54,532 bases of DNA from a virus, in the IMG/VR virus record IMGVR_UViG_3300022752_000089, positions 1 to 54,532 of that record, one strand, 5' to 3'. The notes below the pieces were generated by a model. The model was given only the letters and a program-made list of their open reading frames with translations, was not told the origin of the DNA and made no database searches. The stretch's first letter is position 1. Every line of letters starts with the position of its first letter. Shown here piece after piece: positions 13,550 through 34,343 of the stretch. The position numbers and the translations under genes were made by a program.

Positions 13550-13551
13550 TT

Positions 13552-15116: not shown

Positions 15117-15117
15117 C

Positions 15118-15684: not shown

Positions 15685-15685
15685 A

Positions 15686-17938: not shown

Positions 17939-17947
17939 AAGTTTACT

Positions 17948-18568
17948 ATGATAAGTATAATAATTATTGATTCATTGTATTATGATTTAAGAGCACTTAA
18001 AAAAACAATGGAGACACTAGGGGACAAAGTTACTAAAATTTATTGGTTCTCTGACCTTCCTTTTCCTGAAGAAAACTTTTCTATACCTGTTGTATGGACC
18101 AAGATAGATAAAATAAAAAATTATAATGATGATTATGGTTATATAAGTTTAAAAATATGTCCACATGTGTGCATAGAACCTTATAATCTAACTATACATA
18201 ATGATGGGTTTGCAGTTAATCCAGAAGCTTGGACGGACGAGTTCTATGAATATGATTATATTGGAGCTGTTTGGGGTGATGGTGTTATTGGTAATGGTGG
18301 GTTCACTTTAAGATCCAAAAAGTTATATGATGCTTTGAGGGATATGGATGTATCGTATACCACATTGCCTGAGGACGATATTATATGTAGAGTACACAGA
18401 AGTACATTGGAATCGAAATACGGAATTAAATTTGCTCCGGAACCTATTGCCAATAGATTCAGTATAGAGTATAATCTGAGTTCGGAGTGGTTAGGTAAGA
18501 GTTTAGGTTTTCATGGGAAACATGGAATTCACAAATATTATGGAGATGGTTTATGGGAAATAAAATAA
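17948..18568 (+). CDS. DUF5672-type glycosyltransferase-like protein
   Basis: 206 aa. LTIHNDGFAVNPEAWTDEFY followed by EYDYIGAVWGDGVIGNGGFT and LRSKKL, then PEDDIICRVHRSTLESKYGI, KFAPEPIANRFSIE and LGFHGKHG is the conserved course of DUF5672, usually found in capsule/LPS clusters and next to GT2 genes. It lacks the extra N-terminal domain that some members have. It overlaps the RfbH gene by 16 nt. Confidence 0.8.
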   Translation: MISIIIIDSLYYDLRALKKTMETLGDKVTKIYWFSDLPFPEENFSIPVVWTKIDKIKNYNDDYGYISLKICPHVCIEPYNLTIHNDGFAVNPEAWTDEFYEYDYIGAVWGDGVIGNGGFTLRSKKLYDALRDMDVSYTTLPEDDIICRVHRSTLESKYGIKFAPEPIANRFSIEYNLSSEWLGKSLGFHGKHGIHKYYGDGLWEIK

Positions 18569-19848
18569 ATTCTAATGAAATGGTTGATTATCTTTCTAGA
18601 GAAAAAATCAAGTATGTAAAAAATTATGATAATTATGTAGATGGAGAATTTGTTCAGTATTCTGGACAACTTTGGGATCATAAAGAAATGGCGGCCGCCA
18701 TTGATACATTAATATATGGTGCTTGGATAGTTTCTGGTGAAAAGGTTGAAAAATTCCAAAATGAATTTAGTAAACGGTTCAATGTAGGTTATTCACATAT
18801 GGTGAACTCTGGTAGTTCGGCCAATCTGGTATTAATTTCTTCTATGAAAAAGAAATTTGCATGGCAACCAGGTGATGAGATTATTGTATCTCCTGTTGGA
18901 TTCCCCACAACTATTGCACCAATTGTTCAGAATGAATTGAAGCCAATCTTTATTGACATTGAATTGAATACCTTAAATTTTGATGTTAATTTAATTGAAG
19001 AAAAAATCACACCAAGAACCAAAGCAATATTTGTGTCGCCTGTTTTAGGCAATCCTCCAGACATGGACAAAATTGTTGCTCTATGTGAAAAGTACAATAT
19101 AGTTCTATTAGGTGATAATTGTGATTCTTTGGGAACTAAATGGAACGATAAATTAATCACCGACTTATATTATGCTTGGACAACATCTTTCTATCCAGCA
19201 CACCACATCAGTACGGGTGAAGGTGGTATGGTATGTTCAAATGATGAAGAATTTATTAAACTTTCCAGAAGTATATCTTGGTGGGGCCGTGATTGTTATT
19301 GCATTGGCGCAAATAATATGCTTGAGTGTGGTACTTGCGGCAAACGATTTGATAATTGGATACCAGAATATGATGGTACTATTGACCACAAATACTTGTT
19401 TACAAATATTGGGTATAATTTAAAACCTTTGGATTTGCAAGGTGCTATTGGTTCGGAACAACTGTTGAAGTTTGATATGTTGGAATCTAAACGCAGAGAA
19501 TACAAAAATCAAATTCAGAAGATACTTGAAGATAACATCAAAGATGTTAGGGTTATCAACTCATTGGAATCAGGTGATCCATCATGGTTTGGTGTTCCAA
19601 TTTATTGCGAATCACAAGGCCTCAAAGAATTCTTGGTTTCTCATTTTGAATCTAATAAGATCCAAACAAGAAATTATTTTGCTGGCAATATTCTTGTACA
19701 TCCTGGTTTCAAACATTTGGATGATGCCAAAAAATATCCAAATTCAAACCTTGCTTTGACAAATGTATTCTTTATCGGCTGTTCACCACTATACAATGAT
19801 AAGATTTTGAGTTACATTGAAAAGGTTTGTAAAAAATGGAACGATTGA
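18553..19848 (+). CDS. rfbH: RfbH-like 6-deoxyhexose 3-dehydrase (E1)
   Basis: 431 aa, the usual length of the E1/RfbH group of DegT-DnrJ-EryC1-StrS enzymes. The active-site Lys of aminotransferases is replaced by His: SFYPAHHISTGEGGMV (His 217/218), the mark of CDP-4-keto-6-deoxyglucose-3-dehydrase (PMP- and [2Fe-2S]-dependent C3 deoxygenation). The cluster ligands C190, C248, C250 and C262 follow C-x57-C-x-C as in E1, with a 4-residue insertion before the last one (CGKRF). It removes the C3 hydroxyl on the way to 3,6-dideoxyhexoses such as paratose, abequose or tyvelose. The reductase partner (E3) is not seen nearby and would be supplied by the host. Confidence 0.88.
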   Translation: MGNKINSNEMVDYLSREKIKYVKNYDNYVDGEFVQYSGQLWDHKEMAAAIDTLIYGAWIVSGEKVEKFQNEFSKRFNVGYSHMVNSGSSANLVLISSMKKKFAWQPGDEIIVSPVGFPTTIAPIVQNELKPIFIDIELNTLNFDVNLIEEKITPRTKAIFVSPVLGNPPDMDKIVALCEKYNIVLLGDNCDSLGTKWNDKLITDLYYAWTTSFYPAHHISTGEGGMVCSNDEEFIKLSRSISWWGRDCYCIGANNMLECGTCGKRFDNWIPEYDGTIDHKYLFTNIGYNLKPLDLQGAIGSEQLLKFDMLESKRREYKNQIQKILEDNIKDVRVINSLESGDPSWFGVPIYCESQGLKEFLVSHFESNKIQTRNYFAGNILVHPGFKHLDDAKKYPNSNLALTNVFFIGCSPLYNDKILSYIEKVCKKWND

Positions 19849-20651
19849 TTAGTATATTAGGTCCTGGATTTGTTGGAGGTCGTTATCACGAATTAACATC
19901 AAATTCAGTAACCAATGACAAATATGATTATGAACCTAAATCCGATGAGATTGTTTATTTCATTTCAACCATTGATAATTATAATGTACATACTAATCCT
20001 TATTTGGATATAGATACAAATTTAACGGTTCTTATAAAAACATTGGAACACTGTAAGGGTAAAACTGTAACATTCAATTTTATAAGTTCTTGGTTTGTTT
20101 ATGGTGATGTAGAATTACCAGCAAAAGAATCTTCATATTGTGATCCAAAAGGATTCTATTCCATTACTAAACGTGCCGCTGAACAATTGTTGATATCATA
20201 TTGCGAAACTTTTGATATTGAATATCGTATCATTAGATTAGCTAATGTTTTAGGTAAATCTGATTCTAAAGTTTCCAAGAAAAAGAATGCTCTACAATAT
20301 ATGATTGAAGAAATTAAAAATGGTAGAGATGTTGATATGTACGATGGTGGAAAAATCTTTAGGGATTATATCCATGTCGATGATGTGGTACAAGCAATTA
20401 ATCTTATAATTGATAATGGTGAATTGAATACCATTTATAATGTTGGTAATGGTAAAGAAATATACTTAAAAGATGCTTTGTCTTATGTTAAAAATAAAAC
20501 AAATTCTACCTCTATGTTGAACAGTATAGAATCAGCAAAGTTTCACCAAAAAGTTCAGACAAAAAATATGGTATTGGATATTTCAAAAATACAAAGTTTG
20601 GGATACAAACCTAAATTTGATATCTACCAAGCTTTGGATACCTTGATATAA
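19836..20651 (+). CDS. NAD-dependent sugar epimerase/dehydratase (extended SDR)
   Basis: 271 aa. The N-terminal nucleotide loop is SILGPGFVGGRYH. The catalytic YSITK (Y-x3-K, about residue 107) is preceded by FISSWFVYGDVELPAKESS with the catalytic Ser. IFRDYIHVDDVVQAI is the typical extended-SDR C-terminal motif. It probably reduces or epimerises the 4-keto sugar made by the RfbH step, as Abe/RfbJ or RfbE-like enzymes do; the exact product is inferred. Overlaps both neighbours. Confidence 0.82.
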   Translation: MERLISILGPGFVGGRYHELTSNSVTNDKYDYEPKSDEIVYFISTIDNYNVHTNPYLDIDTNLTVLIKTLEHCKGKTVTFNFISSWFVYGDVELPAKESSYCDPKGFYSITKRAAEQLLISYCETFDIEYRIIRLANVLGKSDSKVSKKKNALQYMIEEIKNGRDVDMYDGGKIFRDYIHVDDVVQAINLIIDNGELNTIYNVGNGKEIYLKDALSYVKNKTNSTSMLNSIESAKFHQKVQTKNMVLDISKIQSLGYKPKFDIYQALDTLI

Positions 20652-21469
20652 TGTCTCAAGGTTACTTTTTAATTGCCATAGGTCAAAGATACATTCTTGA
20701 GGCCTCACTTCTAGCCAATACAATTAAGAAACACGATCCAACAAGACCTATTTGCTTGTTGATTAATCCAGAAGATTTGGACTATGCAAAGTCTTTTGGT
20801 TGTTTTGATGAATATGCACCATTTGATCCGACAGTAGATGAAGAAACTTATAAAAACTGTAATAATAGTTTTGAAAAGTTTTGTATCTATGCCAGAATAA
20901 ACTTTGATAAGATTCTGCCTTACGATGAAACAATCAATTTAGATACTGATGTATTATGTCAATATAATCCAGACCATCTTTGGGATTACTTGTCACAATC
21001 TGAGTTTCCTGTCAGAACGTTAGGCAAGAAAAGATGTGATGCACATTGGCATTGGAATCAAGGATACAATATATCAAACATTGTAGGTAAACATATACCT
21101 GCTGTCCATTGCGGGTTCATATATATTAGAAAGAGTAAAAATACAAATAGGTTTTATGCATCGGTTAGAGAAAAGTTTTTGAATTACGACAAGTACGGAT
21201 GCAAAAGATTGTTCAGAGGATCCAGAACAGAAGAAGCTTGTTATTCGTTGGCATTTTCTGAGTTTGATGCCAGTCCAATTGAGTATCATGAATATCCTGT
21301 GATGACATTTAACTTTGACAAGAATGAAGTTCTACCATCAAAGAAACAAATATTGATTGATGATAACAATGTTCCTTTTGAAATGAATAACTATATTCCA
21401 TTTATACATATGTGGGAAAAAATGGAAGGTGATAATTTTAAATCGTTATATGAAAGAATTATGAAATGA
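20651..21469 (+). CDS. GT8-like glycosyltransferase
   Basis: 272 aa. The start GYFLIAIGQRYILEASLLAN followed by TIKKHDPTRPICLLI matches GT8-like enzymes. NFDKILPYDETINLDTDVLC contains the DxD site. HCGFIYIRKSKN and IPFIHMWEKME correspond to the late conserved region with a metal-binding His. It starts on the last base of the SDR gene. Confidence 0.78.
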   Translation: MSQGYFLIAIGQRYILEASLLANTIKKHDPTRPICLLINPEDLDYAKSFGCFDEYAPFDPTVDEETYKNCNNSFEKFCIYARINFDKILPYDETINLDTDVLCQYNPDHLWDYLSQSEFPVRTLGKKRCDAHWHWNQGYNISNIVGKHIPAVHCGFIYIRKSKNTNRFYASVREKFLNYDKYGCKRLFRGSRTEEACYSLAFSEFDASPIEYHEYPVMTFNFDKNEVLPSKKQILIDDNNVPFEMNNYIPFIHMWEKMEGDNFKSLYERIMK

Positions 21470-22206
21470 ATTTTTATGTAAGACAAACTGACGCCTTAGG
21501 TGATTTTTTGAATTGTATTCCGGTATTGGCTGGCCTTCACAACAGATTTGGTAAATACAATTTAATTGTTAAACATCAAACAGAAAAATTCAAAGGATTT
21601 AAAGACTTTTTGATGTACCAAGATTTGTTTTATGGTGTGTACTTTGACAATGAGTTTCAAGGTGAAGTAATTAATATGGATAATTGGGGTACTGAAAGGG
21701 AATACAAAAGAAATCCTAATAGACCAATTGAAACTTGCAAATATGAAAACTTCCTAAAAGATGTTTATAAAATTGATTTTGAAGTTGATGATAAATTTGT
21801 ATTGAAATATCCAAAGTGTGATGTTGAAATCAAAGATACTTATTATGTTGGTGATAGATGGAATCACTTCAGTACCGACAATAGAAGAAAAACAAACATT
21901 CTATCCCATCTCAAAGATTTTGAATTCATTGACTTCAACAATGACCTGTTGACCAATTGTTACATCATCAAAGAATCTAAAAAACCATTCATTACAAACT
22001 TTACTGGTGTCGGTATGATGGCTGATTTACTTGATAAGGAATTGTTTTGTGTTTGGAAACCAGAAGATTGGAATCCAGAATGGATTGTTGGTGATGGCAT
22101 TACATGGGACAATGGAAAAAATATTGAACAAGTATTTGAAAAACACTTCTACTTGGACCGTAAAGCAAAATTAGTTCATGCAAAAGACTTGGAGAAGTAT
22201 CTATGA
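21466..22206 (+). CDS. GT9/heptosyltransferase-like protein
   Basis: 246 aa. The N-terminus NFYVRQTDALGDFLNCIPVL resembles the R...(L)GD(x)L...P start of ADP-heptose:LPS heptosyltransferases, and KKPFITNFTGVGMMADLLDK is a plausible GT-B nucleotide-binding segment. It is short for GT9 (about 340 aa). With the next gene, which shows the opposite GT9 end motif, it may reflect two divergent relatives or a split enzyme. Confidence 0.5.
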   Translation: MNFYVRQTDALGDFLNCIPVLAGLHNRFGKYNLIVKHQTEKFKGFKDFLMYQDLFYGVYFDNEFQGEVINMDNWGTEREYKRNPNRPIETCKYENFLKDVYKIDFEVDDKFVLKYPKCDVEIKDTYYVGDRWNHFSTDNRRKTNILSHLKDFEFIDFNNDLLTNCYIIKESKKPFITNFTGVGMMADLLDKELFCVWKPEDWNPEWIVGDGITWDNGKNIEQVFEKHFYLDRKAKLVHAKDLEKYL

Positions 22207-22913
22207 TTTTAAACATAGAACGAGGTGTCTTTGGGGATGAAGTAAAAAATGGTGATTTGATAGGTGTTGCCAACGTTGTGGCTTATCTCAGAAAAGAAAA
22301 TCCAGGTATTAAATTTCATATGTTGCCAGGTTCTGTTAGTTCAGTTGGTTACATACAAGAGTTCTATCAATTTCTTTTAAAGAATACAGATTATTTTTCT
22401 GAAACTCCAGGTGAATCTTACATGCAATGGCGTAGAGTTAATCTTTGGGACTTCCGTGATGTTATTGGTGACAATGTTATCATAAAAAATCCACTGATAA
22501 CAGAGAAGAAGATTGTGATATGTCCAGTTTTTGATGCACCATATAACATTTATAGAAACTGGCCTCAACCTGTATTTGATAAAATAATTGCGGAGTATTC
22601 AACAAAAGAATATAATGGTTATGAAAAGATTATATGTGGTATGGAACAATTTAAAGATAGATGTATTTCTCCAGATTGGCAGTATTCATCTGATTTTATG
22701 GCAAACATACAACACATAATGACCACAGAAATATTCATTGGTGGTGATACTGGTACTAGCCACTTTGCATGGTCGCTTGACAAAGGACCTAAAACTTTGT
22801 TATACTATAACTCTGGCCGTGGTATGATGCATTGTATGCCACCTTATTTGTTAGAAGGTAAAGGTCGTATAGTTAGATATTGGTTAGATTTTGAAGGCAC
22901 AACTTGGGGATAA
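22203..22913 (+). CDS. GT9-like glycosyltransferase (GT-B)
   Basis: 236 aa. EIFIGGDTGTSHFAWSL is the strong match to the GT9 donor-site signature (I.NDTG..H.A.AL). Before it, KIVICPVFDAPYNIYRNWPQ resembles the conserved P.......W. segment. ATGA overlap with the previous GT9-like gene. Heptose transfer is not certain; the family also includes other LPS enzymes. Confidence 0.65.
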   Translation: MILNIERGVFGDEVKNGDLIGVANVVAYLRKENPGIKFHMLPGSVSSVGYIQEFYQFLLKNTDYFSETPGESYMQWRRVNLWDFRDVIGDNVIIKNPLITEKKIVICPVFDAPYNIYRNWPQPVFDKIIAEYSTKEYNGYEKIICGMEQFKDRCISPDWQYSSDFMANIQHIMTTEIFIGGDTGTSHFAWSLDKGPKTLLYYNSGRGMMHCMPPYLLEGKGRIVRYWLDFEGTTWG

Positions 22914-22914
22914 A

Positions 22915-24285
22915 ATGAATAAATTGGTTATTTTTGACCTTGATGGTGTGATGATAGATTCCCGTGAAATGCATTATGAAACACTTAATGCAGCTCTACA
23001 TAAAGTTACAGGCACTCCAAAATTTGTAATTACCCGTGAAGAACACCTATCAAGATATGATGGATTAAACACCACCAGAAAATTACAGATGTTGACAGCA
23101 GACAAAGGACTACCAGTTGAATACTATAATGAAATCTGGAGAGAAAAACAGGAAGAAACATTCAAGTTGATTCCTGGTTGTCCAAGAAATAGTTCTGTTT
23201 CGTGGTTGATGGAACAATTAAAGAACAGAGGATGGAAAGTTGCTGTTGCTTCTAACAGTATCCGTGAGACAGTTAAGATTGCTCTTAATTCAATGAATGT
23301 AATTCAATATGTGGATTATTTTGTAAGTAACGAAGATGTTTTTAATCCAAAACCATTTCCAGAAATGTATTGGCAGTGTATGACAAAGATGAAATCTTTG
23401 CCTAAGAACACTATCATTATTGAAGATTCACATATAGGTCGTGAAGGTGCATTGAATTCTGGTGCTCACCTATATCCTGTAAAAGATGCATATGATTTAG
23501 AAGGGACTAAGTTTTTAGAAATGATTGATAATTTTGACATTAAAGACACAACAATTCCATGGCGTGATGAGAAATTGAATGTTCTTATTCCTATGGCAGG
23601 TGCAGGTTCTAGATTTGCTCAGGCAGGTTACACATTCCCTAAACCACTTATTGAAGTTAATGGTAAACCCATGATTCAGGTGGTTGTTGAGAATTTGAAT
23701 ATTGAAGCAAATTATATTTTCTTGGTTCAACGTGAACATTATGAAAAGTACAATCTAAAATACTTGCTTAACTTGATTGCACCTAATTGTACAATCGTTC
23801 AAGTTGACGGCATAACAGAAGGTGCAGCCTGTACTACATTGTTGGCCAAAGAGTTCATTAACAATGATGCACCATTGATTATGGCAAACTCAGACCAATA
23901 CGTTGAATGGAACTCAAATGAATGTCTATATGCTTTTAAAGCAGATTCAATTGATGGTGGTATTCTTACATTCAAGGCAACACATCCTAAATGGTCTTAT
24001 GCAAAACTAGATGACAATGGTTTTGTTTCAGAAGTTGCCGAGAAGAAAGTCATTTCAGACCAAGCAACAGTCGGTGTTTATTATTGGAACAAAGGTTCTG
24101 ATTATGTCAAGTATGCCGAACAGATGATTGACAAGAATATCCGTACAAACAATGAATTCTATGTTGCACCTGTATTCAATGAAGCAATTGAAGATGGTAA
24201 AAAGATTCGTGTTAAACAAGTTACTGGTATGTGGGGTATCGGCACTCCAGAAGATTTGAATTACTTTTTGACACATAAGAAATGA
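22915..24285 (+). CDS. HAD phosphatase fused to sugar nucleotidyltransferase
   Basis: 456 aa from ATG 22915, with GGGGA just upstream. Residues 1-200 are a HAD hydrolase of the beta-phosphoglucomutase type: DLDGVMIDS (nucleophile Asp), ASNSIRET (Ser), KPFPEMYW (Lys) and IIEDSHIG (acidic pair). Residues 210-456 are a GT-A nucleotidyltransferase: LNVLIPMAGAGSRFAQAGYT and FPKPLIEVNGKPMIQ (pyrophosphorylase signature), then ANSDQYVEW (metal site) and GMWGIGTPEDLNYFL. The fusion would dephosphorylate one sugar phosphate and activate another to NDP-sugar. Confidence 0.85.
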   Translation: MNKLVIFDLDGVMIDSREMHYETLNAALHKVTGTPKFVITREEHLSRYDGLNTTRKLQMLTADKGLPVEYYNEIWREKQEETFKLIPGCPRNSSVSWLMEQLKNRGWKVAVASNSIRETVKIALNSMNVIQYVDYFVSNEDVFNPKPFPEMYWQCMTKMKSLPKNTIIIEDSHIGREGALNSGAHLYPVKDAYDLEGTKFLEMIDNFDIKDTTIPWRDEKLNVLIPMAGAGSRFAQAGYTFPKPLIEVNGKPMIQVVVENLNIEANYIFLVQREHYEKYNLKYLLNLIAPNCTIVQVDGITEGAACTTLLAKEFINNDAPLIMANSDQYVEWNSNECLYAFKADSIDGGILTFKATHPKWSYAKLDDNGFVSEVAEKKVISDQATVGVYYWNKGSDYVKYAEQMIDKNIRTNNEFYVAPVFNEAIEDGKKIRVKQVTGMWGIGTPEDLNYFLTHKK

Positions 24286-24965
24286 AAGTAGCTCTTGTTT
24301 TAACTGGCCATATGCGCCATTGGAGAGAAGTTCTACCAAATTTTAAAGAACGATTTATTGACAAATACAATCCAGATATCTTTATCAACACTTGGAGTGA
24401 AGAAGGTTGGTACGGTTTAACTGCTGGTAATGATGAAGAAGGCTTTATTGAAGGCACACCTGGAGTAGAACATAGTGCTATTGCAGAAGCCTATGGCGCC
24501 AAGGCAGTTTCCATACAACGCTTTGATGATTATAGGGAGAATTTCTTACAACAGATTAAGAGATATCCAAACTACAATCATAGGTCTTTGAATATACTTT
24601 CAATGTTTTTTAAGATGGGTCAAGGCATTTTGATGCTTGAGGACTACATTATGAAAACAGGAACACAGTATGATTTGGTAATAAGAACACGACCAGATAT
24701 GTTGGTACACCAAGAACTTCCAGACTTTGACCCCAGATATTTCTATACCGTTTTTCATCCGAATCATACAGGACAAGGTACTGGTGATATGTTACAGGTC
24801 GGTAATCAATTCAATGTCATCAATTTCTGTAAAGCTATTTGTTATCTACCGATAATATATGATAGAAATAATCTATTGTGTCCACATACGGCATCAACAA
24901 CTTTTATTGAAATGCTGAATCTTCCGTGGCAACAAATACACTTGAATAAGGAATTTTACAGATGA
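24282..24965 (+). CDS. Glycosyltransferase-like protein
   Basis: 227 aa. It opens KVALVLTGHMRHWREVLPNF and includes YDLVIRTRPDMLVHQELPDF, a recognisable pair in putative glycosyltransferases of polysaccharide clusters (sensor of the L.G..R start and the RTR.D site). It overlaps both neighbours by 4 nt. Family number not assigned. Confidence 0.6.
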   Translation: MKVALVLTGHMRHWREVLPNFKERFIDKYNPDIFINTWSEEGWYGLTAGNDEEGFIEGTPGVEHSAIAEAYGAKAVSIQRFDDYRENFLQQIKRYPNYNHRSLNILSMFFKMGQGILMLEDYIMKTGTQYDLVIRTRPDMLVHQELPDFDPRYFYTVFHPNHTGQGTGDMLQVGNQFNVINFCKAICYLPIIYDRNNLLCPHTASTTFIEMLNLPWQQIHLNKEFYR

Positions 24966-25420
24966 TAGTTATAGCCCACCGTGCTTTATTGGATGGACCA
25001 GACAAAGAACTAGAAAATAATCCAAAACAAATACGATATTGTTTGTCGGAGGGTATTCCTTGTGAGATTGATGTTTGGTGGTATCATGACCGCTGGTGGT
25101 TGGGACATGACAAACCAGAATATGAAACAACTCTTGAATTCCTGTCACAAGATGGCCTATGGATTCACTGTAAGAACCTGGATGCATTAAACTTATTAAG
25201 GGAAGAAGGTATACATTGTTTCTGGCACCAAGAAGATGATGTTACTTTGACCAGTTGGGGATACATCTGGACCTATCCTAAGATAAGAGAATTGTTTCCA
25301 AAAAGCATCGCAGTCTTACCAGAATTGGACAGAGACTATTGGGATTATGCCAAAACAATGCTTATCACAGGAGTTTGTACCGATTTTGTTAATAAATGGA
25401 ACTCCGAAACATATAAATAA
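24962..25420 (+). CDS. GDPD-like phosphodiesterase domain, short form
   Basis: 152 aa. IAHRALLDGPDKELENNPKQ, then GIPCEIDVWWYHDRWWLGHD, retains the glycerophosphodiester phosphodiesterase catalytic pattern (HR...EN, E-x-D, H). The barrel is shorter than the usual 240 or more residues, so it is a minimal or truncated version. It may act on a phosphodiester-linked group of the glycan. Its stop codon lies just inside the late promoter at 25412. Confidence 0.72.
   Translation: MIVIAHRALLDGPDKELENNPKQIRYCLSEGIPCEIDVWWYHDRWWLGHDKPEYETTLEFLSQDGLWIHCKNLDALNLLREEGIHCFWHQEDDVTLTSWGYIWTYPKIRELFPKSIAVLPELDRDYWDYAKTMLITGVCTDFVNKWNSETYK
25412..25419 (+). promoter_or_regulatory. Perfect T4-type late promoter TATAAATA
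   Basis: TATAAATA followed by AGCCC, 48 nt before the first gene of the capsid-targeted block. It overlaps the stop codon of the GDPD-like gene and marks the boundary between the glycan genes and the late region. Confidence 0.85.
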
Positions 25421-25466: not shown

Positions 25467-26657
25467 ATGTTAACTTTTCAATCGTTTTTAAAAGAAGAAG
25501 CTGAAGGCGGAGAACTTAAGCACATTCATCATGCTGAAGACCGCCCATTAATGCACGGTCATGCCGGTTTTGAACACGCACATGAAGCACTAATGAAGGC
25601 TCATGCTCATATGACCTCTGGTGCAAAAAGCAGTAATCTAACAATGAAATATGATGGTTCTCCATCACTTGTTTTTGGTCATCATCCTTCAAATGGTAAA
25701 TTCTTTGTTGCAACTAAATCGGCATTCAACAAAAATCCAAAGATTAATCACACGGAAAAAGATATTGATAGGAACCACGGCCATGCGCCTGGTCTTGCAA
25801 GAACACTTAAACACGCACTCAAACACCTACCAAAAGTAACACCTAAAACTGGTGTATATCAAGGTGATTTGATGCACCATGCAGAAACCAAACATTTACA
25901 TGAAGGTTTTATTGTAGAAGCAAAAGACAGTAAAGTGTCTTTCACACCAAATACAATCACTTATACTGCTCATGGTGATGCGGCAAAAAAAATTAAAAGG
26001 TCTAAGGTTGGTATAGTTGTTCATCAAAAATACAGTGATGACATGAAAAGTGCTTCTCCTCATGTTGACCACCACAATTTTAAAGAACATCCAGATGTTC
26101 ATATTCATGGTGCTGAACATGATACAAGTAAAGTTAAACATTCTCCTGAGAATGAGAAGAAGTTTCAAACTCACATGGCTGCAGCAAAAGAAATTCACGA
26201 CACGCATGGCCATAAAATGTATGATGCTATGCATCCAAAACATACTGGTGAATCAGGTCATCTTTCTACATACATTAATAAAACTGTAAGACACGATGAA
26301 GTACCATCTGTTAAAGGTTTCAAAGAACATTTAAAAGATGTACACGAAAAACAAGCCGCAAAGGTAAAAACAGAAAAAGCCAAATCAGAAAAAACTGGTG
26401 AAGGCGTTAAACAAATTGCTCATGTTGAAAAGAACAAGTCACATTATGGCAATCTATTTGCTATGCATCACCATTTACATCAAGCCAAAAATGCTTTAGT
26501 AAGTTCTTTAGAAACACATGAAGGACACTACCAACACCACATTGAAGGTAAAAAATCTAAACCAGAAGGTTTCGTTGTGCATCATAATAATGAACCAACT
26601 AAATTGGTTAATCGTGCAGAATTCGCAAAACAAAATTTGTTAAAGGTAAGAAAATGA
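25467..26657 (+). CDS. DUF6267-like, ligase/nucleotidyltransferase-like, capsid-targeted
   Basis: 396 aa. The leader MLTFQSFLKE|E matches the T4 capsid-targeting sequence and a prohead protease site (L-x-E). The body has motifs of the ATP-dependent ligase/nucleotidyltransferase superfamily: KYDGS (K61-x-D-G, motif I), VATKSAF, GVYQGDLM (129-136, motif III) and KVGIVVH (motif IV-like, about 180-186). It is strongly His-rich (nine His in the first 50 residues). It resembles DUF6267 of T4-like phages. First gene after the late promoter. Inferred role: nucleic-acid end joining or adenylation by a protein carried in the head. Confidence 0.65.
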   Translation: MLTFQSFLKEEAEGGELKHIHHAEDRPLMHGHAGFEHAHEALMKAHAHMTSGAKSSNLTMKYDGSPSLVFGHHPSNGKFFVATKSAFNKNPKINHTEKDIDRNHGHAPGLARTLKHALKHLPKVTPKTGVYQGDLMHHAETKHLHEGFIVEAKDSKVSFTPNTITYTAHGDAAKKIKRSKVGIVVHQKYSDDMKSASPHVDHHNFKEHPDVHIHGAEHDTSKVKHSPENEKKFQTHMAAAKEIHDTHGHKMYDAMHPKHTGESGHLSTYINKTVRHDEVPSVKGFKEHLKDVHEKQAAKVKTEKAKSEKTGEGVKQIAHVEKNKSHYGNLFAMHHHLHQAKNALVSSLETHEGHYQHHIEGKKSKPEGFVVHHNNEPTKLVNRAEFAKQNLLKVRK

Positions 26658-27634
26658 TAACATTTAAAAGTTTTTTAATCAATGAAGGCCGTGGAAAACT
26701 TACTGCGTCTGGTGCAATTGGTGATGAACATAAAAAGAAATATGTTGACCCCCATGTAGGATCTGGAAAATTTTCACACGCATTAGCATCTGAACATGAT
26801 GATTTGCCAAAAGGTTCTTCTGTAAAAATTCATAAAGTTGAACATATTAATGGAAAAATACACGTTCACGCTGAAGATGAAACAGGTAATCATCATACTA
26901 TTCCAATATCCAAATTACACAAACCTGGCGAAGCACCACCAAACAAAGGTCATGAATATGAAAGTAAATTTGTTGATAGAATGAAAAAACATGGAATTAT
27001 GCCTCACCATTTATCAGGTGCAGGTTCAACTAGCGGTACGGATTTTGCTGTAGAACATAAGAAAAAAGGATCAAAAAGTCACTTTCATGCCGGTATCGTA
27101 TCTGGACATTTGCTTAATGGTGAAACAAAAAATGGTGTTACTGCTGCTATGGGTCAGTTGACAATACATCATACAAAAGAAAAAGGTTGGCATATTAAAG
27201 ATTCACAAAGAGAAAAAAGACCAAAATATGCTAAAGCAATTGAACATGCTGGCATTTTGGATCATATGAACGCACACCATCACAATCCAGAAAAATCTGA
27301 AACTACTGCTTCTGGTAGAGCAAAGTCTATTGAAATTCATCATCCAGATTTAAAACCGGCAGAATCATATTTACAGGACCATCATGTACATGTACTACAA
27401 GTTGGTGGACATGGAACTTATAGAGTCGGTACAAAAGATGAAACTGGCCACGGATTGCCAAGAATTTCAGGTGAAGGTAAATGGAGAATCAGAGAAAAAC
27501 AAAAAGGTAATAAAAGCGCTAGAACCGTTGCTTTTCATCCTGCTAGTGTAAAAGCTTTGAAAAAGAGTCATGTTGATTTGGACAAAGATGACCATCTAGA
27601 AGCATTTAAGAAAACATTAGGACATAAAGATTAA
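26654..27634 (+). CDS. PD-(D/E)XK nuclease-like protein, capsid-targeted
   Basis: 326 aa. The leader MITFKSFLINE|G is T4 CTS-like. The central part shows a full PD-(D/E)XK set: HEYESKF (E101/E103), GTDF (D130), GETK (E157-T-K159) and MGQLTIHH (Q168), the order typical of restriction-endonuclease folds. His-rich overall. ATGA overlap with the ligase-like gene before it. A packaged nuclease could act on host DNA after entry or on the phage genome; both are inference. Confidence 0.6.
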   Translation: MITFKSFLINEGRGKLTASGAIGDEHKKKYVDPHVGSGKFSHALASEHDDLPKGSSVKIHKVEHINGKIHVHAEDETGNHHTIPISKLHKPGEAPPNKGHEYESKFVDRMKKHGIMPHHLSGAGSTSGTDFAVEHKKKGSKSHFHAGIVSGHLLNGETKNGVTAAMGQLTIHHTKEKGWHIKDSQREKRPKYAKAIEHAGILDHMNAHHHNPEKSETTASGRAKSIEIHHPDLKPAESYLQDHHVHVLQVGGHGTYRVGTKDETGHGLPRISGEGKWRIREKQKGNKSARTVAFHPASVKALKKSHVDLDKDDHLEAFKKTLGHKD

Positions 27635-29434
27635 ATGAAATCATTTTTAGATATACTACAAGAGGAAAAGAATGGTGAAAAACACCATGTTTTTACCTTT
27701 GGTAGAATGAATCCGCCTACTACTGGCCACTTGAAGTTAATTGACAAAGTTAAAGAAGTTGCTGCAAAACATAATGCTGGTCATACAGTTGTCACATCAC
27801 ATTCACAAGATGCAAAGAAAAATCCTTTATCTGCCGGTGAAAAAGTAAAACATCTAAAGAGATATTCTCCTGGTACTAATTTTCAATCTTCATCAAAAGA
27901 ACATCCATCGTTCTTACATCATGCAGCTCAATTACATAAACAAGGTGTTTCACATCTTCATATGGTAGTTGGTTCTGACCGTGTACATGAAATGAAAAAT
28001 ACATTAAACAAATATAATGGACCACATGAAGGTGCATTGTATCATTTCAAAAAAATAACTGTACATTCTGCTGGTGAACGTGATCCAGATGCAGAAGGTA
28101 CAACTGGTATGTCTGGTACCAAGATGCGTGAACATGCCAGAAATAAAGACCTTGGAAAATTTAAACAAGGTGTTCCTGGCCACGTTTCTGGTGCTCATGC
28201 AAAAGAGTTGATGCATGACACAAGAAAAGGTATGGGATTACACGAATCTTACAATCGTGGTATGTTTAAGGCTATTTTTGTGACGGGCGGACCAGGTTCT
28301 GGTAAAGATGTTATCATCCGTGAAGCAATTGCTGAATCAAAGGCAGTAGAGTTAAATTCAGTACAAGCTTTTGATTACCTGATGGACAAACAAAGATTGT
28401 CTGAAAAATCTAATGACTTTCGTAGAGAATCAATCAGAAATCGTGGACCTTTGATTATCAATGGACCTGCTGATGACCATTCTCGCATAATTACAATTAG
28501 AGAAGAATTAGAAGAACTTGGTTACGAAACAATTATGGTATTTGTTAATACCACAGACAGAGCCAGCCAAGAAAGAAATCTAAGATTGACAAAAATGATT
28601 GCCGAATCAATCAGACGAGAAAAGTGGGAACTTGCCCAATCTTGTAAAGAATCTTACGTACAAAATTTTGATAACTTCATATATTTTGACAATAGTTCCG
28701 AAATCGAATCTATTGAAGAAGATATTACTGAGACCTATAAAAAAATAAATACATTTATAGACAGTAAAAACTATGGCGAAATTTCTTATTCGTGGTTGGA
28801 AAATCATGGTAGATTGGGTGCCAATGAATCATTTAATTATTTTAAGGAAAATTATCATGCTAAAGAAAATAGTAGATTGGTTGAAAATAAAGCCAAAGGA
28901 CCAAGACTCCAAAGTGGAGGAGGTCCAAAAGCCGATGGTCCAGGAGACATTACCCCAGACAACAGAGCAGGTGACCCCAACTCCGGTGATATCAAGTGGG
29001 ACGGAAACAAAAAAAGAGGTAGTTACACCTTCAAAACGTACAGCGAAGAAAACAACGGCCCCAAAATCAAAATCTACCCAGAGCCAAAAGAAAGCAACTT
29101 CTCCAAAGACAAAGAAACAATAAAAAAGAAAAAGAACACCGATGTTCCTACTGTAAGTCAAAGACTTAGAAATGTAACGACCATCGGTCCAGAATTCGAT
29201 ACACGCCAACAGGGAACAGTATACCCTATGTCTGGTCTAGGCGATGTAACATACAGAGAACAGATAGACTTTAAGAATTTTAGAAGAAAAGTTGTAGAAG
29301 CAATAGACGATCCAGGTGCAAATGATATGGGTGTTGGTGGAACTTTAGGTGGTGCAACCAATAAAGAACCGATGCAGTCATACAAAGACCAAGATAAGAA
29401 CATAACAACTGTAATTAAAAAGAAGAAGAAATGA
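27635..29434 (+). CDS. NMNAT-like adenylyltransferase fused to P-loop kinase
   Basis: 599 aa. The leader MKSFLDILQE|E is CTS-like. Residues 18-200 are a nucleotidylyltransferase: FGRMNPPTTGHLKL (the (H/T)-x-G-H motif at 30-32) and MSGTKMREHA (159-168, the ISSTxxR-type motif). Residues 211-370 are a P-loop kinase, with Walker A TGGPGSGKD (217-225). The layout resembles NadR (NMN adenylyltransferase plus nicotinamide riboside kinase), so an NAD-related reaction is a fair guess, but other substrates are possible. A long low-complexity, Pro/Lys/Gly-rich tail (about 410-599) follows. An overlapping ORF lies inside it at 28857-29123. Confidence 0.78.
   Translation: MKSFLDILQEEKNGEKHHVFTFGRMNPPTTGHLKLIDKVKEVAAKHNAGHTVVTSHSQDAKKNPLSAGEKVKHLKRYSPGTNFQSSSKEHPSFLHHAAQLHKQGVSHLHMVVGSDRVHEMKNTLNKYNGPHEGALYHFKKITVHSAGERDPDAEGTTGMSGTKMREHARNKDLGKFKQGVPGHVSGAHAKELMHDTRKGMGLHESYNRGMFKAIFVTGGPGSGKDVIIREAIAESKAVELNSVQAFDYLMDKQRLSEKSNDFRRESIRNRGPLIINGPADDHSRIITIREELEELGYETIMVFVNTTDRASQERNLRLTKMIAESIRREKWELAQSCKESYVQNFDNFIYFDNSSEIESIEEDITETYKKINTFIDSKNYGEISYSWLENHGRLGANESFNYFKENYHAKENSRLVENKAKGPRLQSGGGPKADGPGDITPDNRAGDPNSGDIKWDGNKKRGSYTFKTYSEENNGPKIKIYPEPKESNFSKDKETIKKKKNTDVPTVSQRLRNVTTIGPEFDTRQQGTVYPMSGLGDVTYREQIDFKNFRRKVVEAIDDPGANDMGVGGTLGGATNKEPMQSYKDQDKNITTVIKKKKK
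28857..29123 (+). CDS. Possible overprinted ORF inside the NMNAT-kinase gene
   Basis: 88 aa in another frame of 27635-29434. AGGAAA at 28845 is ideally spaced before ATG 28857. The product starts MLKKIVDWLKIKPKDQDSKV and ends in a Lys/Thr/Ser/Pro-rich, histone-like tail (KRTAKKTTAPKSKSTQSQKK...). Short basic proteins with such tails do exist in related phages. Against it: the surrounding tail is low-complexity and poor in stops in several frames, including the minus strand (28829-29209), so the opening may be compositional. Confidence 0.35.
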   Translation: MLKKIVDWLKIKPKDQDSKVEEVQKPMVQETLPQTTEQVTPTPVISSGTETKKEVVTPSKRTAKKTTAPKSKSTQSQKKATSPKTKKQ

Positions 29435-29916
29435 AAACTTTTAAAGAATACTTAAATGAAGTTGATGCACAAACCTTGCACCAAGATGCTGAAGAAATTA
29501 AGCGTCAGAAAAAGCATTTAAAAGATAAAGCCAAAGAATACCAAGACCAAGCAGATAGAGAAAAATCAGTAGGTGAATTTGGCGGCGCAGCAGATGCTAA
29601 AGGAAAAGGTTTTGAATTAGCTGCAAAAAATATTAAAGAAGATTCACCTGCATGGCAACGTTCTGCTGGAAAAGATCCAAAAGGTGGCTTAAATAGAAAA
29701 GGTATTGCTTCGTATCGCAGAGAACATCCAGGTTCTAAACTTTCAATGGCTGTTACAACAAAGCCATCTAAGTTGGATCCAGATAGTAAAGCTGCAAAAA
29801 GAAGAAAGTCGTTTTGTGCCAGAATGTCTGGTATGAAAAAAAGGTTAACATCTGCTAAGACAGCTAATGATCCTGATTCTAGAATCAATAAGTCTTTGCG
29901 TAAATGGAATTGCTAA
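29431..29916 (+). CDS. DUF6321-like basic protein, capsid-targeted
   Basis: 161 aa. The leader MKTFKEYLNE|V is the closest match in the window to the T4 leader MKTYQEFIAE|A. A charged helical region (20-75) precedes a conserved C-terminal block: SPAWQRSAGKDPKGGLNRKG, SYRREHPGSKL, KRRKSFCARMSGM, DPDSRINKSLRKWNC. This block corresponds to DUF6321 of aquatic T4-like phages. It is very basic and could bind DNA inside the head. Overlaps the previous stop by ATGA. Confidence 0.75.
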   Translation: MKTFKEYLNEVDAQTLHQDAEEIKRQKKHLKDKAKEYQDQADREKSVGEFGGAADAKGKGFELAAKNIKEDSPAWQRSAGKDPKGGLNRKGIASYRREHPGSKLSMAVTTKPSKLDPDSKAAKRRKSFCARMSGMKKRLTSAKTANDPDSRINKSLRKWNC

Positions 29917-29929
29917 ACGGAGAACAACA

Positions 29930-30877
29930 ATGATAAATTTTAATAAAAAAGACCCAGTTGCTGACGTAATCAGAGGAATCATGGAGAAAGAATTGTCTCC
30001 AGCCCAAAAGAAAATCGCTGCACTTGCTGGTGATAAAAAAGCAATTGATGCTTTAGATTTGGCAGCTCTACGTGCTGGTAAAAAACCAACATCTGAAGAA
30101 ACAGTTGAAGAAAATGCTTTTGATTACAAAAGTCCACGTAAACCTGAACCTAATGGTGGTTCTGGTGTAAAACAAGGTTCACGTTATGGTGGTTCTAAAC
30201 AAAAAGAAAAACCAGAACAAGAAGAACCAAAAGAAAAGATGAAAGAAGAAATTGATCCTTCAGATAGAACAGAAGATACTCTTTCTGGCCGTGTAAAAAC
30301 GAAAAGAAAAGATGATGTTGGACCTGGTTCAGATAGTAAAAGTACTAAAGTCAAATATCACCCAGGTCCTATGACATTAAAGGGTATGAAAGAAAAATAT
30401 GAAGAACCAATTCTTGATGAATTGATTAATGAAGTTCTTTCTAAAGATGCAGATGCTGGTGATTATATTCATGATTTTATACATTCAGATAATCCAAAAT
30501 TTGCTGGTAAGTCTAAGGCTGAACGCAAGAAAATGGCTCTTGGTGCTTACTATGGAAAAAAGAATGAAGAATATGTTGAAGAAAACATGATGAAGAATGC
30601 TGCAAAAAAAGCATTTAAGGCCTTGACTGGTGGTTCCGATGAGGATCAACGTAAAGACCTACAACGCAAGATGGGTGTACCACAAACTGGTAAAAAACCA
30701 ACTCAAAAAGAAGAAGTTGTAGTAGAAGGTCGTACACCAGTATCATCTCCTGGTATGGACACTCCTTTTGTTACCAATGCAGAAAATAAACCCTTGAACA
30801 ATGCAAAAGAACTTGCTGCAAAAACTATGAAAAGAATGAAAAATGAAATGCTTGGAAAAACAGGCACATCCGAATAA
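29930..30877 (+). CDS. Low-complexity, charged late protein
   Basis: 315 aa from ATG 29930 (GGAGAA at 29919; longer in-frame starts lie inside the previous gene). It is Lys/Glu-rich with little secondary-structure signal. One compact patch, YIHDFIHSDNPKFAGKSKAE followed by RKKMALGAYYGKK, looks like a conserved helical motif of phage proteins. The C-terminus contains SSPGMDTPFVTNAENKPLNNAK. Late context and composition suggest a head-core or internal protein; no CTS-like leader is visible. Confidence 0.7.
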   Translation: MINFNKKDPVADVIRGIMEKELSPAQKKIAALAGDKKAIDALDLAALRAGKKPTSEETVEENAFDYKSPRKPEPNGGSGVKQGSRYGGSKQKEKPEQEEPKEKMKEEIDPSDRTEDTLSGRVKTKRKDDVGPGSDSKSTKVKYHPGPMTLKGMKEKYEEPILDELINEVLSKDADAGDYIHDFIHSDNPKFAGKSKAERKKMALGAYYGKKNEEYVEENMMKNAAKKAFKALTGGSDEDQRKDLQRKMGVPQTGKKPTQKEEVVVEGRTPVSSPGMDTPFVTNAENKPLNNAKELAAKTMKRMKNEMLGKTGTSE

Positions 30878-30885
30878 GGTACAAA

Positions 30886-32277
30886 ATGAGCAGAGCACAA
30901 TTACTTAAATCATTAATTAAGAATACGGACATTTCCGAGGATGCAGCTTTGGACAAATATCTATTGTCTAGAGGTATTAATCCAAAGTTTGCCACAAAAG
31001 ACCAAAAAGTTGCTCATTCAAAAACAAATCAGTTCATTAATTGGAAAAATAGCAGACTTAATGAAATGACTGATAAGAAAGATACTGTTACATTGGATAT
31101 TCCATTGCTTATTCGTGTTTTAGAATTGGCTCGTGAAGATATCAGAACAGATATGGATTTGCACCGTGTTGTGGAGAAGTTGATTAACATTCGTAAAAAA
31201 GGAATGTTGACAATGAAAGATTATAATTACATTTCTAAAATCCATGAAGAAATTATGCCACAAATATCAGAAAATCATGTCGCTATCGCCATGGGCAAAA
31301 TGTTGGATGATGAAGGCAGTATGGTTCTAAATCAATTGGATGATATTGACCGTTGTTCAAAAATGATTCGTGATTATGTTGGTAAAGATTACGAAAAACA
31401 AATGCCTGCTTGGGTACAATCAAAAGTAACTTTGGCTGCGGACTACATCAATACTGTTGGTTCTTATTTGTCAACTAAAAATGAAGAAGTTGAACCTATT
31501 GATGAAATATCAACTACTGGATATCATGCAGCTGCCGTAAAGAGCAGACAAGATGCTGCTGTTAAAGTAATGTCCAGTATGGGTCAAGACAAAGCAGCAA
31601 AAACAAAGTTGAATGCTCGTAATGCTGGTCTAAAAAGACTTAGTGACAGAACATCAACTGAAATGAAGAAAGCCAATTCTGGTCCACAAAAACAACCAGT
31701 CGGAAAAGAACCTACTGAAGCCGAACGCCGTGGTTATGGCCAAGGTCGCTACATGGGTGACTCTGTTGAACATGATGATGAAACAATGGTTGAGGCACAA
31801 TCTGCTGCAGTTCGTTGGCAAAAGGCTTTAGAAGCTGCCAAAAAGAAGCGTGAAGAAGAAGAAAGAAGAAACGCAGAAAATGCCAAGCGTGCTCTTACAC
31901 CAGTCAAAGAAGATAAGTTTCAAGATTCAATGGCTGCAACACAAACAGTAGGTATGGAAGTAGATAATCCATCAGATGCTGAAAGAAAAAGTCAAAGGTC
32001 CAAGTCTGCTCGTATAATCAAATCCATATATAAAAGAAAAAATATGAAGGAAGAGTTATACGACCATGAAAAGGAAGATAAACCAACAACATCTTATGGC
32101 AAGAAACCAAAGATGAGTATAACAAAACCAACAGATAATGTCGGTGAGAATAAACCAGATGCGGCAGCTGTCTTGACTGGTGGAAAGACATTAACAGGTC
32201 AAACAAGAGATACTATTGAGATTGATCCAATGATGAAGAAGCGTCCAGGATCTGATCCTACTGGTAAAAACAAATAA
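30886..32277 (+). CDS. Charged helical late protein, possible head-core protein
   Basis: 463 aa. The N-terminal part is folded and helical (residues 1-200), including PAWVQSKVTLAADYINTVGS, a phrase that recurs in proteins of T4-like phages. The C-terminal half is repetitive and charged (AAKKKREEEERRNAENAKRA). PIDE|I near residue 205 is a possible prohead protease site. It lies between the capsid-targeted genes and the late structural gene at 32321. Function unknown. Confidence 0.7.
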   Translation: MSRAQLLKSLIKNTDISEDAALDKYLLSRGINPKFATKDQKVAHSKTNQFINWKNSRLNEMTDKKDTVTLDIPLLIRVLELAREDIRTDMDLHRVVEKLINIRKKGMLTMKDYNYISKIHEEIMPQISENHVAIAMGKMLDDEGSMVLNQLDDIDRCSKMIRDYVGKDYEKQMPAWVQSKVTLAADYINTVGSYLSTKNEEVEPIDEISTTGYHAAAVKSRQDAAVKVMSSMGQDKAAKTKLNARNAGLKRLSDRTSTEMKKANSGPQKQPVGKEPTEAERRGYGQGRYMGDSVEHDDETMVEAQSAAVRWQKALEAAKKKREEEERRNAENAKRALTPVKEDKFQDSMAATQTVGMEVDNPSDAERKSQRSKSARIIKSIYKRKNMKEELYDHEKEDKPTTSYGKKPKMSITKPTDNVGENKPDAAAVLTGGKTLTGQTRDTIEIDPMMKKRPGSDPTGKNK

Positions 32278-32279
32278 CA

Positions 32280-32287
32280 CATAAATA
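32280..32287 (+). promoter_or_regulatory. T4-type late promoter CATAAATA
   Basis: CATAAATA followed by AGCAAC, one base from the T4 consensus, placed 34 nt before the start of the structural gene at 32321 and just after the preceding stop codon. A strong AAGGAGA ribosome site at 32309 follows. Confidence 0.75.
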
Positions 32288-32320
32288 AGCAACATAACCA
32301 AAGGTTAAAAGGAGACACAA

Positions 32321-32923
32321 ATGTCAGCATGGTCAAATACAGATTTATATGCAAATACAAAACCAAAATTTCCGGATTTAAGACAAGTCCGTGAAGTTTA
32401 TCAGACAACAACAGCAAATAGTACTGCTTCGGGTGCTGCTACTATCACTTTTGTTTATAATGATGGTGGTCAAAATAACATAGCAAACGCTGGTGTAATA
32501 GTTGGAAGTTATGCCTACGGATCAGGTTTAACAGCTAATGGTACATCAAACTTCTTTGCTGGAAACACAAGAGTTACGAATGTCGTTGGTAATACAGTTA
32601 CATTCAACGCAGGTACAACTGCTGTTGTAGCATCTGGTACATTAATTGAGTTTGACCAACAAATCAAATGGCAAACTGGAGTGGCGAATACTTATAACCA
32701 AGATACAGTTTTAGTTACTGCTACCCGTGCTGCTAATGCTTCTTGGGGTGCAGCAAATCATGGAGAAGGCGCACACACTGGTTGGGTTCACGTTGTTTCT
32801 GGTACAGGCGGCCGTTTAGGACGTAAACAAGTAGAAACATTAGTTTGTTTGGCTAATGCGGTTGCTTACAACGCACTATCTGGTAATACAAGTAATAGCG
32901 GAACATATTACGCAGGTCTATAA
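32321..32923 (+). CDS. Virion structural protein (beta-rich)
   Basis: 200 aa, Gly/Ala/Thr/Asn-rich and beta-prone, with almost no Lys-rich stretches, unlike its neighbours. The C-terminal phrase VTATRAANASWGAANHGEGA then HTGWVHVVSGTGGRLGRKQV is familiar from structural proteins of aquatic T4-like phages. It has its own late promoter, a strong ribosome site and a terminator behind it, as expected for an abundant virion protein. Head decoration or a tail/neck role cannot be told apart. Confidence 0.7.
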   Translation: MSAWSNTDLYANTKPKFPDLRQVREVYQTTTANSTASGAATITFVYNDGGQNNIANAGVIVGSYAYGSGLTANGTSNFFAGNTRVTNVVGNTVTFNAGTTAVVASGTLIEFDQQIKWQTGVANTYNQDTVLVTATRAANASWGAANHGEGAHTGWVHVVSGTGGRLGRKQVETLVCLANAVAYNALSGNTSNSGTYYAGL

Positions 32924-32926
32924 TGA

Positions 32927-32952
32927 AAATAGGCACTTTCGGGTGCCTATTT
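32927..32952 (+). terminator. Rho-independent terminator
   Basis: AAATAGGCAC (32927-32936) and GTGCCTATTT (32943-32952) form a 10-bp stem with a 6-nt TTTCGG loop. The T-tract is carried by the end of the stem. It directly follows the stop of the structural gene. Confidence 0.82.
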
Positions 32953-32959
32953 CTACACT

Positions 32960-33346
32960 ATGTTTGATAATTTGAATGAAGATAATTTCTTAATGTATGC
33001 TGTGAAGTGTTATACATCACCGCATTGCATTTTGTCGGAATTTGAGGGAGATATTAAAAGAACAAAATACCTGAAAAGGTTATTTCGTAGATATAAAATC
33101 ACCAAGACAATCAAAGAAAGACTTATTCTAAATCATATTATCTTATTGAATAATGTTTTTGGTTCTGAAGCAACAGCAAGAATATTATTCTATAAGACTG
33201 ATGAACGAGATTATGATATATTGAAAACGTTTTTATCTTATTTAAACATTGCACCAGATATGGTGTATGGAATTAGAGGTAAAAATATATCAGTAGCAGA
33301 AATTCCATTAGATTTAAATGTCGCAGAGATATTAATACAAATATGA
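32960..33346 (+). CDS. Conserved small phage protein
   Basis: 128 aa, all-helical. The course MFDNLNEDNFLMYAVKCYTS, then KRTKYLKRLFRRYK, KERLILNHIILLNNVFGSEA and ARILFYK is a widely conserved T4-like phage family of unknown function. ATGA overlap with the next gene. Confidence 0.78.
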   Translation: MFDNLNEDNFLMYAVKCYTSPHCILSEFEGDIKRTKYLKRLFRRYKITKTIKERLILNHIILLNNVFGSEATARILFYKTDERDYDILKTFLSYLNIAPDMVYGIRGKNISVAEIPLDLNVAEILIQI

Positions 33347-33822
33347 AAACTTTTAAACAATACATAGATGAAAAAGGAAGATGCTGGCCAGGTCATAAGC
33401 CTGTACCAGGAAAGAAACCTTTTTCTCCAGGAAGTTGTATGAAAGAATCAGCTGCAGCCGCTATTGCAGCTGCAACAGCAATATCTAAAAAGAAATCTGG
33501 AGATTATGATTCAAAAGGATTTCGTAAAACAAAATATAAAAACCCAAACAATCCTAATATAAAATCAAACGAGCAAAGAAGAAAAGAACTTGCTGAAGAT
33601 TTAAGAAAATGGTTTGCTCAGAAATGGGTTCGCATGGATACCAAAGGTAATATCAAAGGGGATTGTGCTCGTGATCCTGGTGAAGGCAAACCTAAATGTC
33701 TTCCACAAGCAAAAGCACAAGCTTTAGGTAAAGAGGGAAGAGCTTCAGCTGCTAGAAGAAAACGCAGAGAAGATCCAAATCCAGAACGCCGTGGTGCACC
33801 AATTAATGTTAGGACAAAATAA
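33343..33822 (+). CDS. Basic Cys-containing protein, capsid-targeted
   Basis: 159 aa. The leader MKTFKQYIDE|K is CTS-like with an I-x-E protease site. GRCWPGHKPVPGKKPFSPGS comes next, and the conserved C-terminal domain reads LRKWFAQKWVRMDTKGNIKG, DCARDPGEGKPKCLPQAKAQ, then RRKRREDPNPERRG. I recognise this as a widespread phage domain of unknown role. High Arg/Lys content suggests DNA association in the head. Confidence 0.75.
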   Translation: MKTFKQYIDEKGRCWPGHKPVPGKKPFSPGSCMKESAAAAIAAATAISKKKSGDYDSKGFRKTKYKNPNNPNIKSNEQRRKELAEDLRKWFAQKWVRMDTKGNIKGDCARDPGEGKPKCLPQAKAQALGKEGRASAARRKRREDPNPERRGAPINVRTK

Positions 33823-34343
33823 TGAAATCATTTAAAGTATTTAGAGAAGAACACTTAGAAGAAAAAAATGTTCCAACAAGTCCAGAAAAATGGGCTAGAG
33901 CCAAATCTGCTGCAAAATCTAAATTTGCTGTATATCCATCTGCATATGCAAACGGTTGGGCATCAAAGAAATATAAAGCTATGGGTGGTGGTTGGAGAGC
34001 AACATCAGAAGATGTTGGACTAGAAGAAGGTTCATACATGGATACTGTGAAAAAAAGGATTGCTGGTCGTAATGCAGAAAAATATTCACAGTATTCTAAA
34101 GCCGATAAAGAACAAGACCGACCAGTAAGTTCAAAATTGTATGCCAAAATGGCCAAAAACCAAAAGAAACTTTCTGAAGATGGTATGGGTGTGGGTGCCA
34201 TGAGTGCTGCACCTACCAATACTGTTGGTAGTGGAAAGATTGCTGGTTCTGGTGGCCAAGGTGGTGAACCTGGTGTCAATCCAAAGAAGAAAAAAGGTCC
34301 TGTACTAATACAGATGGCCAAAAGAAAAACACCGATGGCATAA
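33822..34343 (+). CDS. DUF5872-like protein, capsid-targeted
   Basis: 173 aa. The leader MKSFKVFREEHLEE|K is a weaker CTS match, with L-E-E as the likely protease site. KNVPTSPEKWARAKSAAKSK followed by FAVYPSAYANGWASKKYKAM and GGGWR is the DUF5872 signature, common in phages and some algal viruses; function unknown. The rest is a basic, Gly/Lys-rich tail. Starts on the last base of the previous gene. Confidence 0.75.
   Translation: MKSFKVFREEHLEEKNVPTSPEKWARAKSAAKSKFAVYPSAYANGWASKKYKAMGGGWRATSEDVGLEEGSYMDTVKKRIAGRNAEKYSQYSKADKEQDRPVSSKLYAKMAKNQKKLSEDGMGVGAMSAAPTNTVGSGKIAGSGGQGGEPGVNPKKKKGPVLIQMAKRKTPMA

Follow-up and report, generated by a model that had tools for sequence, protein, structure and literature searches.

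Six proteins encoded in one block of a T4-type phage genome begin with a short leader that, with a probability that we put at about 0.85, is a capsid-targeting signal by which an exchangeable set of enzymes is packaged and delivered along with the DNA. The leader probably accounts for how these phages bring ready-made enzymes into infected cells. The whole stretch analyzed (the window) is an IMG/VR record of 54,532 bases, a fragment of a T4-type phage in which uvsX-, gp41-, and gp61-like genes were recognized by synteny and sequence similarity. Closest to it are other environmental contigs; more distant relatives are Kyanoviridae, e.g., cyanophages, Pelagibacter phage HTVC008M, and Methylophilales phage Melnitz. 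S-SM1, HTVC008M, Melnitz, and S-SZBM1 have a corresponding block, with the gp41 gene on one side and the gp61 gene on the other. Direct DNA search of the window against the phage collection gave no match, and neither did a portal-family search of this fragment, for which the control was likewise without a match. Elsewhere in the window, 14 tRNA genes occupy positions 63-2432, and a long series of glycan-like genes (glycosyltransferase- and nucleotidyltransferase-like) fills 13546-25420, immediately before the block.

The original prediction named six leader-bearing proteins between 25467 and 34343, and all six open reading frames (ORFs) and their N termini were found at its coordinates. The features of the block are given below, with a slash at the predicted cut. 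"Strict leader" denotes a match to the pattern ^M.[TSKNDG][FY]..[FYIL][ILVM].{1,2}E, built from the T4 leader. Homologs were gathered from ~170 environmental loci, and their counts include partial and cross-matched sequences (many of protein 10's 53), so the true leader fractions are probably higher.

25412..25419 (+), T4-type late promoter box TATAAATA, exact match, 55 nt upstream of the first leader gene
25467..25496 (+), protein 1 leader MLTFQSFLKE/E; strict leader in 95/109 homologs
25467..26657 (+), protein 1, DUF6267 (Pfam PF19782, 6e-95; phrog_455)
26654..26686 (+), protein 2 leader MITFKSFLINE/G; strict leader in 28/56 homologs
26654..27634 (+), protein 2, phrog_26930-like (PHROG 3e-13)
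27635..27664 (+), protein 3 leader MKSFLDILQE/E; strict leader in 69/121 homologs
27635..29434 (+), protein 3, cytidylyltransferase/NMNAT-like (~10-211) plus P-loop kinase-like (~205-391) (Pfam, PHROG, NCBIfam)
29431..29460 (+), protein 4 leader MKTFKEYLNE/V; strict leader in 45/69 homologs
29431..29916 (+), protein 4, DUF6321 domain at the C terminus (Pfam 5.6e-19)
29930..30877 (+), family P5, neighbor without leader; leader in 0/58 homologs
30886..32277 (+), family P6, neighbor without leader at its own N terminus
32321..32923 (+), neighbor without leader (family 7); leader in 0/19 homologs
32960..33346 (+), neighbor without leader, DUF7207 (family 8; Pfam 5e-35); leader in 0/46 homologs
33343..33372 (+), protein 9 leader MKTFKQYIDE/K; strict leader in 15/28 homologs
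33343..33822 (+), protein 9, small (weak phrog_23735/727; PHROG)
33822..33863 (+), protein 10 leader MKSFKVFREEHLEE/K, weaker; strict leader in 12/53 homologs
33822..34343 (+), protein 10, small (phrog_27331/3286; PHROG)

The leaders had been called near-identical, which holds at residues 4, 7, 8, and 10; elsewhere they are less alike. In the 26654 leader, the predicted cut falls after I-N-E, at residue 11, and the 33822 leader lies outside the strict pattern. None of the homologs collected for families 5, 7, 8, and 11 had a strict leader, and a few cross-matched homologs of family P6 did have one.

The strict pattern matched 5 of the 79 window ORFs, all inside the block, versus an expectation of 0.02 calculated at internal positions of these window proteins (Poisson P ~3e-11). 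The leader was not equally common in early, nonvirion proteins: in two near-complete relatives (172 and 175 kb, scanned in 20-kb pieces), the strict form was confined to two ORFs each, all within the block, and in S-SM1 it was confined to a single gene, T4-GC190, whose product has been detected in virions. Over the 75 kb of T4 that was scanned, the pattern fell exactly on IPII and IPIII; IPI has the leader in a longer form. Among 8,303 frame segments, 281 leader proteins were counted, 266 of them in the families of the block. Three further starts in the window, at 15118, 44194, and 47861, are leader-like by a loose pattern only. The last was rejected for its lack of conservation in relatives, and those at 15118 (a sugar-cluster gene) and 44194 look like chance matches.

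Next to this restriction stands the conservation of the leader. In an alignment of 31 protein 1 homologs, picked irrespective of the leader, M1, F4, and E10 were invariant and F7 nearly so, and positions beyond E10 were variable, with indels. Both codons are in use at F4 and at E10, which places the conservation in the protein. In T4, amber-suppressor work found residues 4 and 7 chiefly responsible for targeting, and residues 8 and 10 for processing (PMC9026906); the conserved F4, F7, and E10 are thus residues of the T4 targeting and cleavage mutagenesis. The leaders also agree with the description of a capsid-targeting sequence (CTS) as an N-terminal propeptide of 10 to 19 residues with key residues 4 and 7, and all six proteins have, as sequence, the (L/I)xE cleavage site of gp21. 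In a residue table limited to sequences whose residue 4 is F, Y, L, or I, residues 4 and 7 of proteins 2, 4, and 9 resembled those of protein 1. Protein 3 is weaker at position 7, where its homologs often have V, K, or R, or else they lack E10. E10 was present in 56 to 80% of families 2, 3, 4, and 9. The leader is missing from some cyanophage homologs of proteins 1 and 3, among them DUF6267 of P-HM1, S-RIM2, and S-SZBM1. Among distant phages, the cytidylyltransferases of PA5oct and GAP32 and the DUF6267 protein of EniLVp02 start without it.

The block opens, as predicted, with a perfect late promoter box at 25412. The box TATAAATA has two copies only in the window and is rare in two relatives (14 copies in their 347 kb), and it was found no more than 120 nt upstream of 83 of 97 first-gene homologs, mostly at -51 to -55. 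Elsewhere in these relatives, the box stands ahead of head genes (scaffold-like and small core-like) and of an hsp20-like gene. A gp21-family protease (PF03420) was present in all seven of the longer relatives searched; gp21 is absent from the window, itself a genome fragment.

Bodies that are unrelated to one another bear the leader, and relatives exchange the contents of one slot of the block. At the DNA level, the leaders have a mean of 19 of 30 nt in common, versus only 9 to 10 for the bodies and the upstream DNA. The leaders at 29431 and 33343 are identical at 27 of 30 nt. One gene start might recently have been duplicated or spread by gene conversion, and the common N terminus might then play no part in targeting. 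We consider this origin for the common N terminus very improbable, given conservation at the protein level at the residues that T4 needs, the lack of similarity in the DNA upstream of the leaders, and the presence of leader-bearing proteins in virions. In relatives, the leader of protein 4 joins the body directly or via an insert. The slot that separates protein 1 from protein 3 is filled by protein 2 in 85 loci, is empty in 48, and is occupied by something else in 18, several of these being unrelated leader-bearing proteins.

Unrelated leader proteins in the protein 2 slot, without a significant Pfam match, include L115:3296-4063, L152:1221-2345, and L164:9842-10141. In L116, L121, L127, L135, L145 to L148, and L151, the slot has untagged proteins of ~393 to 468 residues that start like MSLQLKIYLTRAGL. 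One of the leader proteins that fall outside the families of the block is encoded at L153:1819-2520 (+), away from the main block; it starts with MKTFKTFIVE/S, is 234 residues long, and contains an ADP-ribosyltransferase domain (Pfam ADPrib_exo_Tox, 4e-12). There is also an extended leader form, in which a W/S/R stretch is followed by a CTS-like sequence (L205:4705-7314 [-] and L203:702-1253 [-]). This form is that of S-CRM01_128 (MRQSRWAKWSRGTEVKLSLDSFIKE/A) and of the Cas9-like S-CREM2 gp12 (MTSRWSNWSTGSDKKPLRFASFMAE/A), in which LRFASFMAE/A lies behind a 16-residue extension.

Of the labels first given to the cargo, that of the NMNAT/kinase protein was upheld in its cytidylyltransferase part by Pfam, PHROG, and NCBIfam, next to a P-loop kinase-like domain, and "ligase-like" and "PD-(D/E)XK-like" were left as motifs, with an unsupportive fold search. 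For protein 3, a cytidylyltransferase domain is firmly predicted: PF01467 and TIGR00125 scored above the cut-off, the PHROG cytidyltransferase match was 7e-62, and the sequence has the GRxNPPTxGH and SGTxxR motifs, in keeping with CTP_transf_like. With the NMNAT model NF002243, it scored 16.2 bits (cut-off, 127), which does not place it among NAD-making NMNATs. In protein 1, KxDG and EGxV motifs are invariant in the alignment and suggest a candidate ligase-like nucleotidyltransferase. PDB sequence and profile searches with protein 1 gave no match, and the Foldseek PDB search did not support its assignment as a DNA/RNA ligase (best ligase, 1xdn; E, 3.3; TM, 0.15). In the viral library, ligases were among the weak matches, just below the family's own members, which is only a hint. 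The AlphaFold model of protein 1 had a pLDDT of 85, with residues 1 to 18 below 50 and two short stretches also less confident. The matches to this model in the viral library include cytidyltransferase-annotated proteins of ~590 to 600 residues, so some phages may encode proteins 1 and 3 as a fusion; such a fusion, if real, would suggest a joint task. Protein 2 has a conserved GTD..GETK..GQ motif in its alignment, reminiscent of PD-(D/E)XK nucleases. It stays a candidate nuclease: there was no significant fold match, only a small SH3-like part being hit, and the motif region was modeled at a pLDDT below 50. A PADLOC search of the cargo gave no match. The cargo may act at the start of infection, e.g., in nucleotide or NAD supply.

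Published virion proteomes of cyanophages serve as an independent test of the link between leader and head. The cytidylyltransferase T4-GC190 was detected in S-SM1 virions (PMC3037559), and cytidylyltransferase/NMNAT counterparts were detected in virions of S-SZBM1 (PMC9146016), S-CREM2 (PMC10665884), and S-SCSM1 (PMC9602691). In S-CREM2 virions, a SAM hydrolase, a kinase, and gp13 were also detected by mass spectrometry (MS) (PMC10665884). All four virion-detected cytidylyltransferase/NMNAT homologs have the leader. It reads MKKFSAFLNE/A in the S-SM1 cytidylyltransferase, MRFRQFIIE/A in S-SZBM1_140, and MKSFLQFLKE/A in the S-SCSM1 NMNAT; in S-CREM2, the leaders are MKNFSSFLTE/A (gp154), MKDFDSFLEE/F (gp6, SAM hydrolase), MKDLHSFLTE/Q (gp13), and MKRFDAFLTE/E (gp14, kinase). 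S-CRM01_130, annotated as a Ser/Thr kinase, starts with MISFDQFLSE/K and is probably the virion kinase cited in PMC10665884. The detections concern proteins of relatives, the window phage being known here from sequence alone. Together with the restriction of the leader to the block, these leader-bearing cytidylyltransferase homologs support the original reading of a T4-type capsid-targeting leader.

For S-CREM2, we compared MS detection across 206 of the ~219 annotated proteins. Four of five leader proteins were detected versus 43 of 201 others (P = 0.01); the leader pattern had been relaxed after some of those proteins had been seen, so this enrichment counts as support and not as a blind test. 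With the strict pattern alone, both matching proteins were detected (2/2; P = 0.05). The leader-like gp175 was not MS detected. The authors of two virion proteomes raise contamination by enzymes as possible (PMC10665884 and PMC9602691), and the enzymes in virion preparations might then be abundant late cytoplasmic proteins whose leader has another use, e.g., in stability or membrane association. Such an account is improbable in our view: the detections are independent and come from several phages, and nearby S-CREM2 enzymes without a leader (dam methylase, pyrimidine-dimer glycosylase, and EcoRI-like nuclease) were not detected. Consistent with nondetection, the S-SZBM1 DUF6267 protein, which has no leader, is not named in PMC9146016.

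We propose that the six proteins would be expressed late from the TATAAATA promoter, with their first 10 to 14 residues serving as a capsid-targeting sequence of the T4 kind in which residues 4 and 7 would draw the proteins into the prohead core. The gp21-family prohead protease would then cleave behind the glutamate of (L/I)xE, releasing enzymes that would remain in the mature head and presumably enter the host with the DNA. Alternatively, the leader might take late proteins to the prohead core for a role in head morphogenesis or DNA condensation, with no ejection into the host. T4 IPIII influences head morphogenesis (PMC9026906), and leaderless neighbors in the block have counterparts with head or virion protein annotations; in S-PM2, Syn9, P-HM1, and S-SZBM1, a gene annotated as a head or virion structural protein, matched by position and N-terminal likeness only, is in the place of the 32321..32923 gene. 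We hold this alternative to be unlikely, though less so than the others: the nucleotidyltransferase/kinase bodies and, in relatives, the SAM hydrolase, kinase, and ADP-ribosyltransferase domain fit host takeover better than assembly, and the cargo differs between close relatives.

Returning to packaging and delivery, we see it as an even bet that the leader is a general, exchangeable head-loading address across Kyanoviridae and freshwater relatives, by which any late gene gaining it would join an injected cargo kit acting before phage gene expression. If so, the swappable kit would comprise a nucleotidyltransferase, a kinase, a SAM hydrolase, an ADP-ribosyltransferase, and possibly a nucleic acid ligase and a nuclease, and it may, e.g., supply nucleotides or NAD or blunt defenses. 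Cyanophage proteomics has met metabolic enzymes in virions, left undecided between packaged and contaminant; a leader readable from sequence offers an answer. With it, the cargo that is injected can be predicted for hundreds of marine and freshwater T4-type phages already sequenced, and what they deliver as infection begins becomes open to direct testing. We found no report of the leader in these phages in the open-licence literature.

The closest known system is that of the T4 internal proteins IPI, IPII, and IPIII, whose CTS is likewise a leader of ~10 residues; positions 4 and 7 are aromatic or hydrophobic, and positions 8 to 10 read (L/I)xE. Also shared are a late promoter (here predicted from its box), a gp21-family protease (here in relatives), and several unrelated bodies under one leader that are exchanged between relatives. 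Unlike in T4, the window bodies include a cytidylyltransferase/kinase and DUF6267, no IP family came up in the Pfam and PHROG searches, and the genes form a block of six located elsewhere in the genome (ahead of the gp61 primase gene). T4 Alt, a packaged ADP-ribosyltransferase, is also an enzyme in the head, and the L153 protein is likened to it by role; unlike Alt, the L153 protein has a short IP-type leader. By description, giant-phage ejection proteins (SPN3US) are similar in that many head proteins are packaged with the genome and processed by the prohead protease (PMC10052503 and PMC7411985). The virion NMNAT/cytidylyltransferase and kinases of cyanomyoviruses (S-SM1, S-SZBM1, S-CREM2, S-SCSM1, and S-CRM01) share the cytidylyltransferase family and the same leader with the window, and in most of them the gene neighborhood is similar. 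The available text of those papers leaves the leader unmentioned and packaging open. In the window phage, the tagged cargo extends further, to DUF6267, protein 2, DUF6321, and small proteins.
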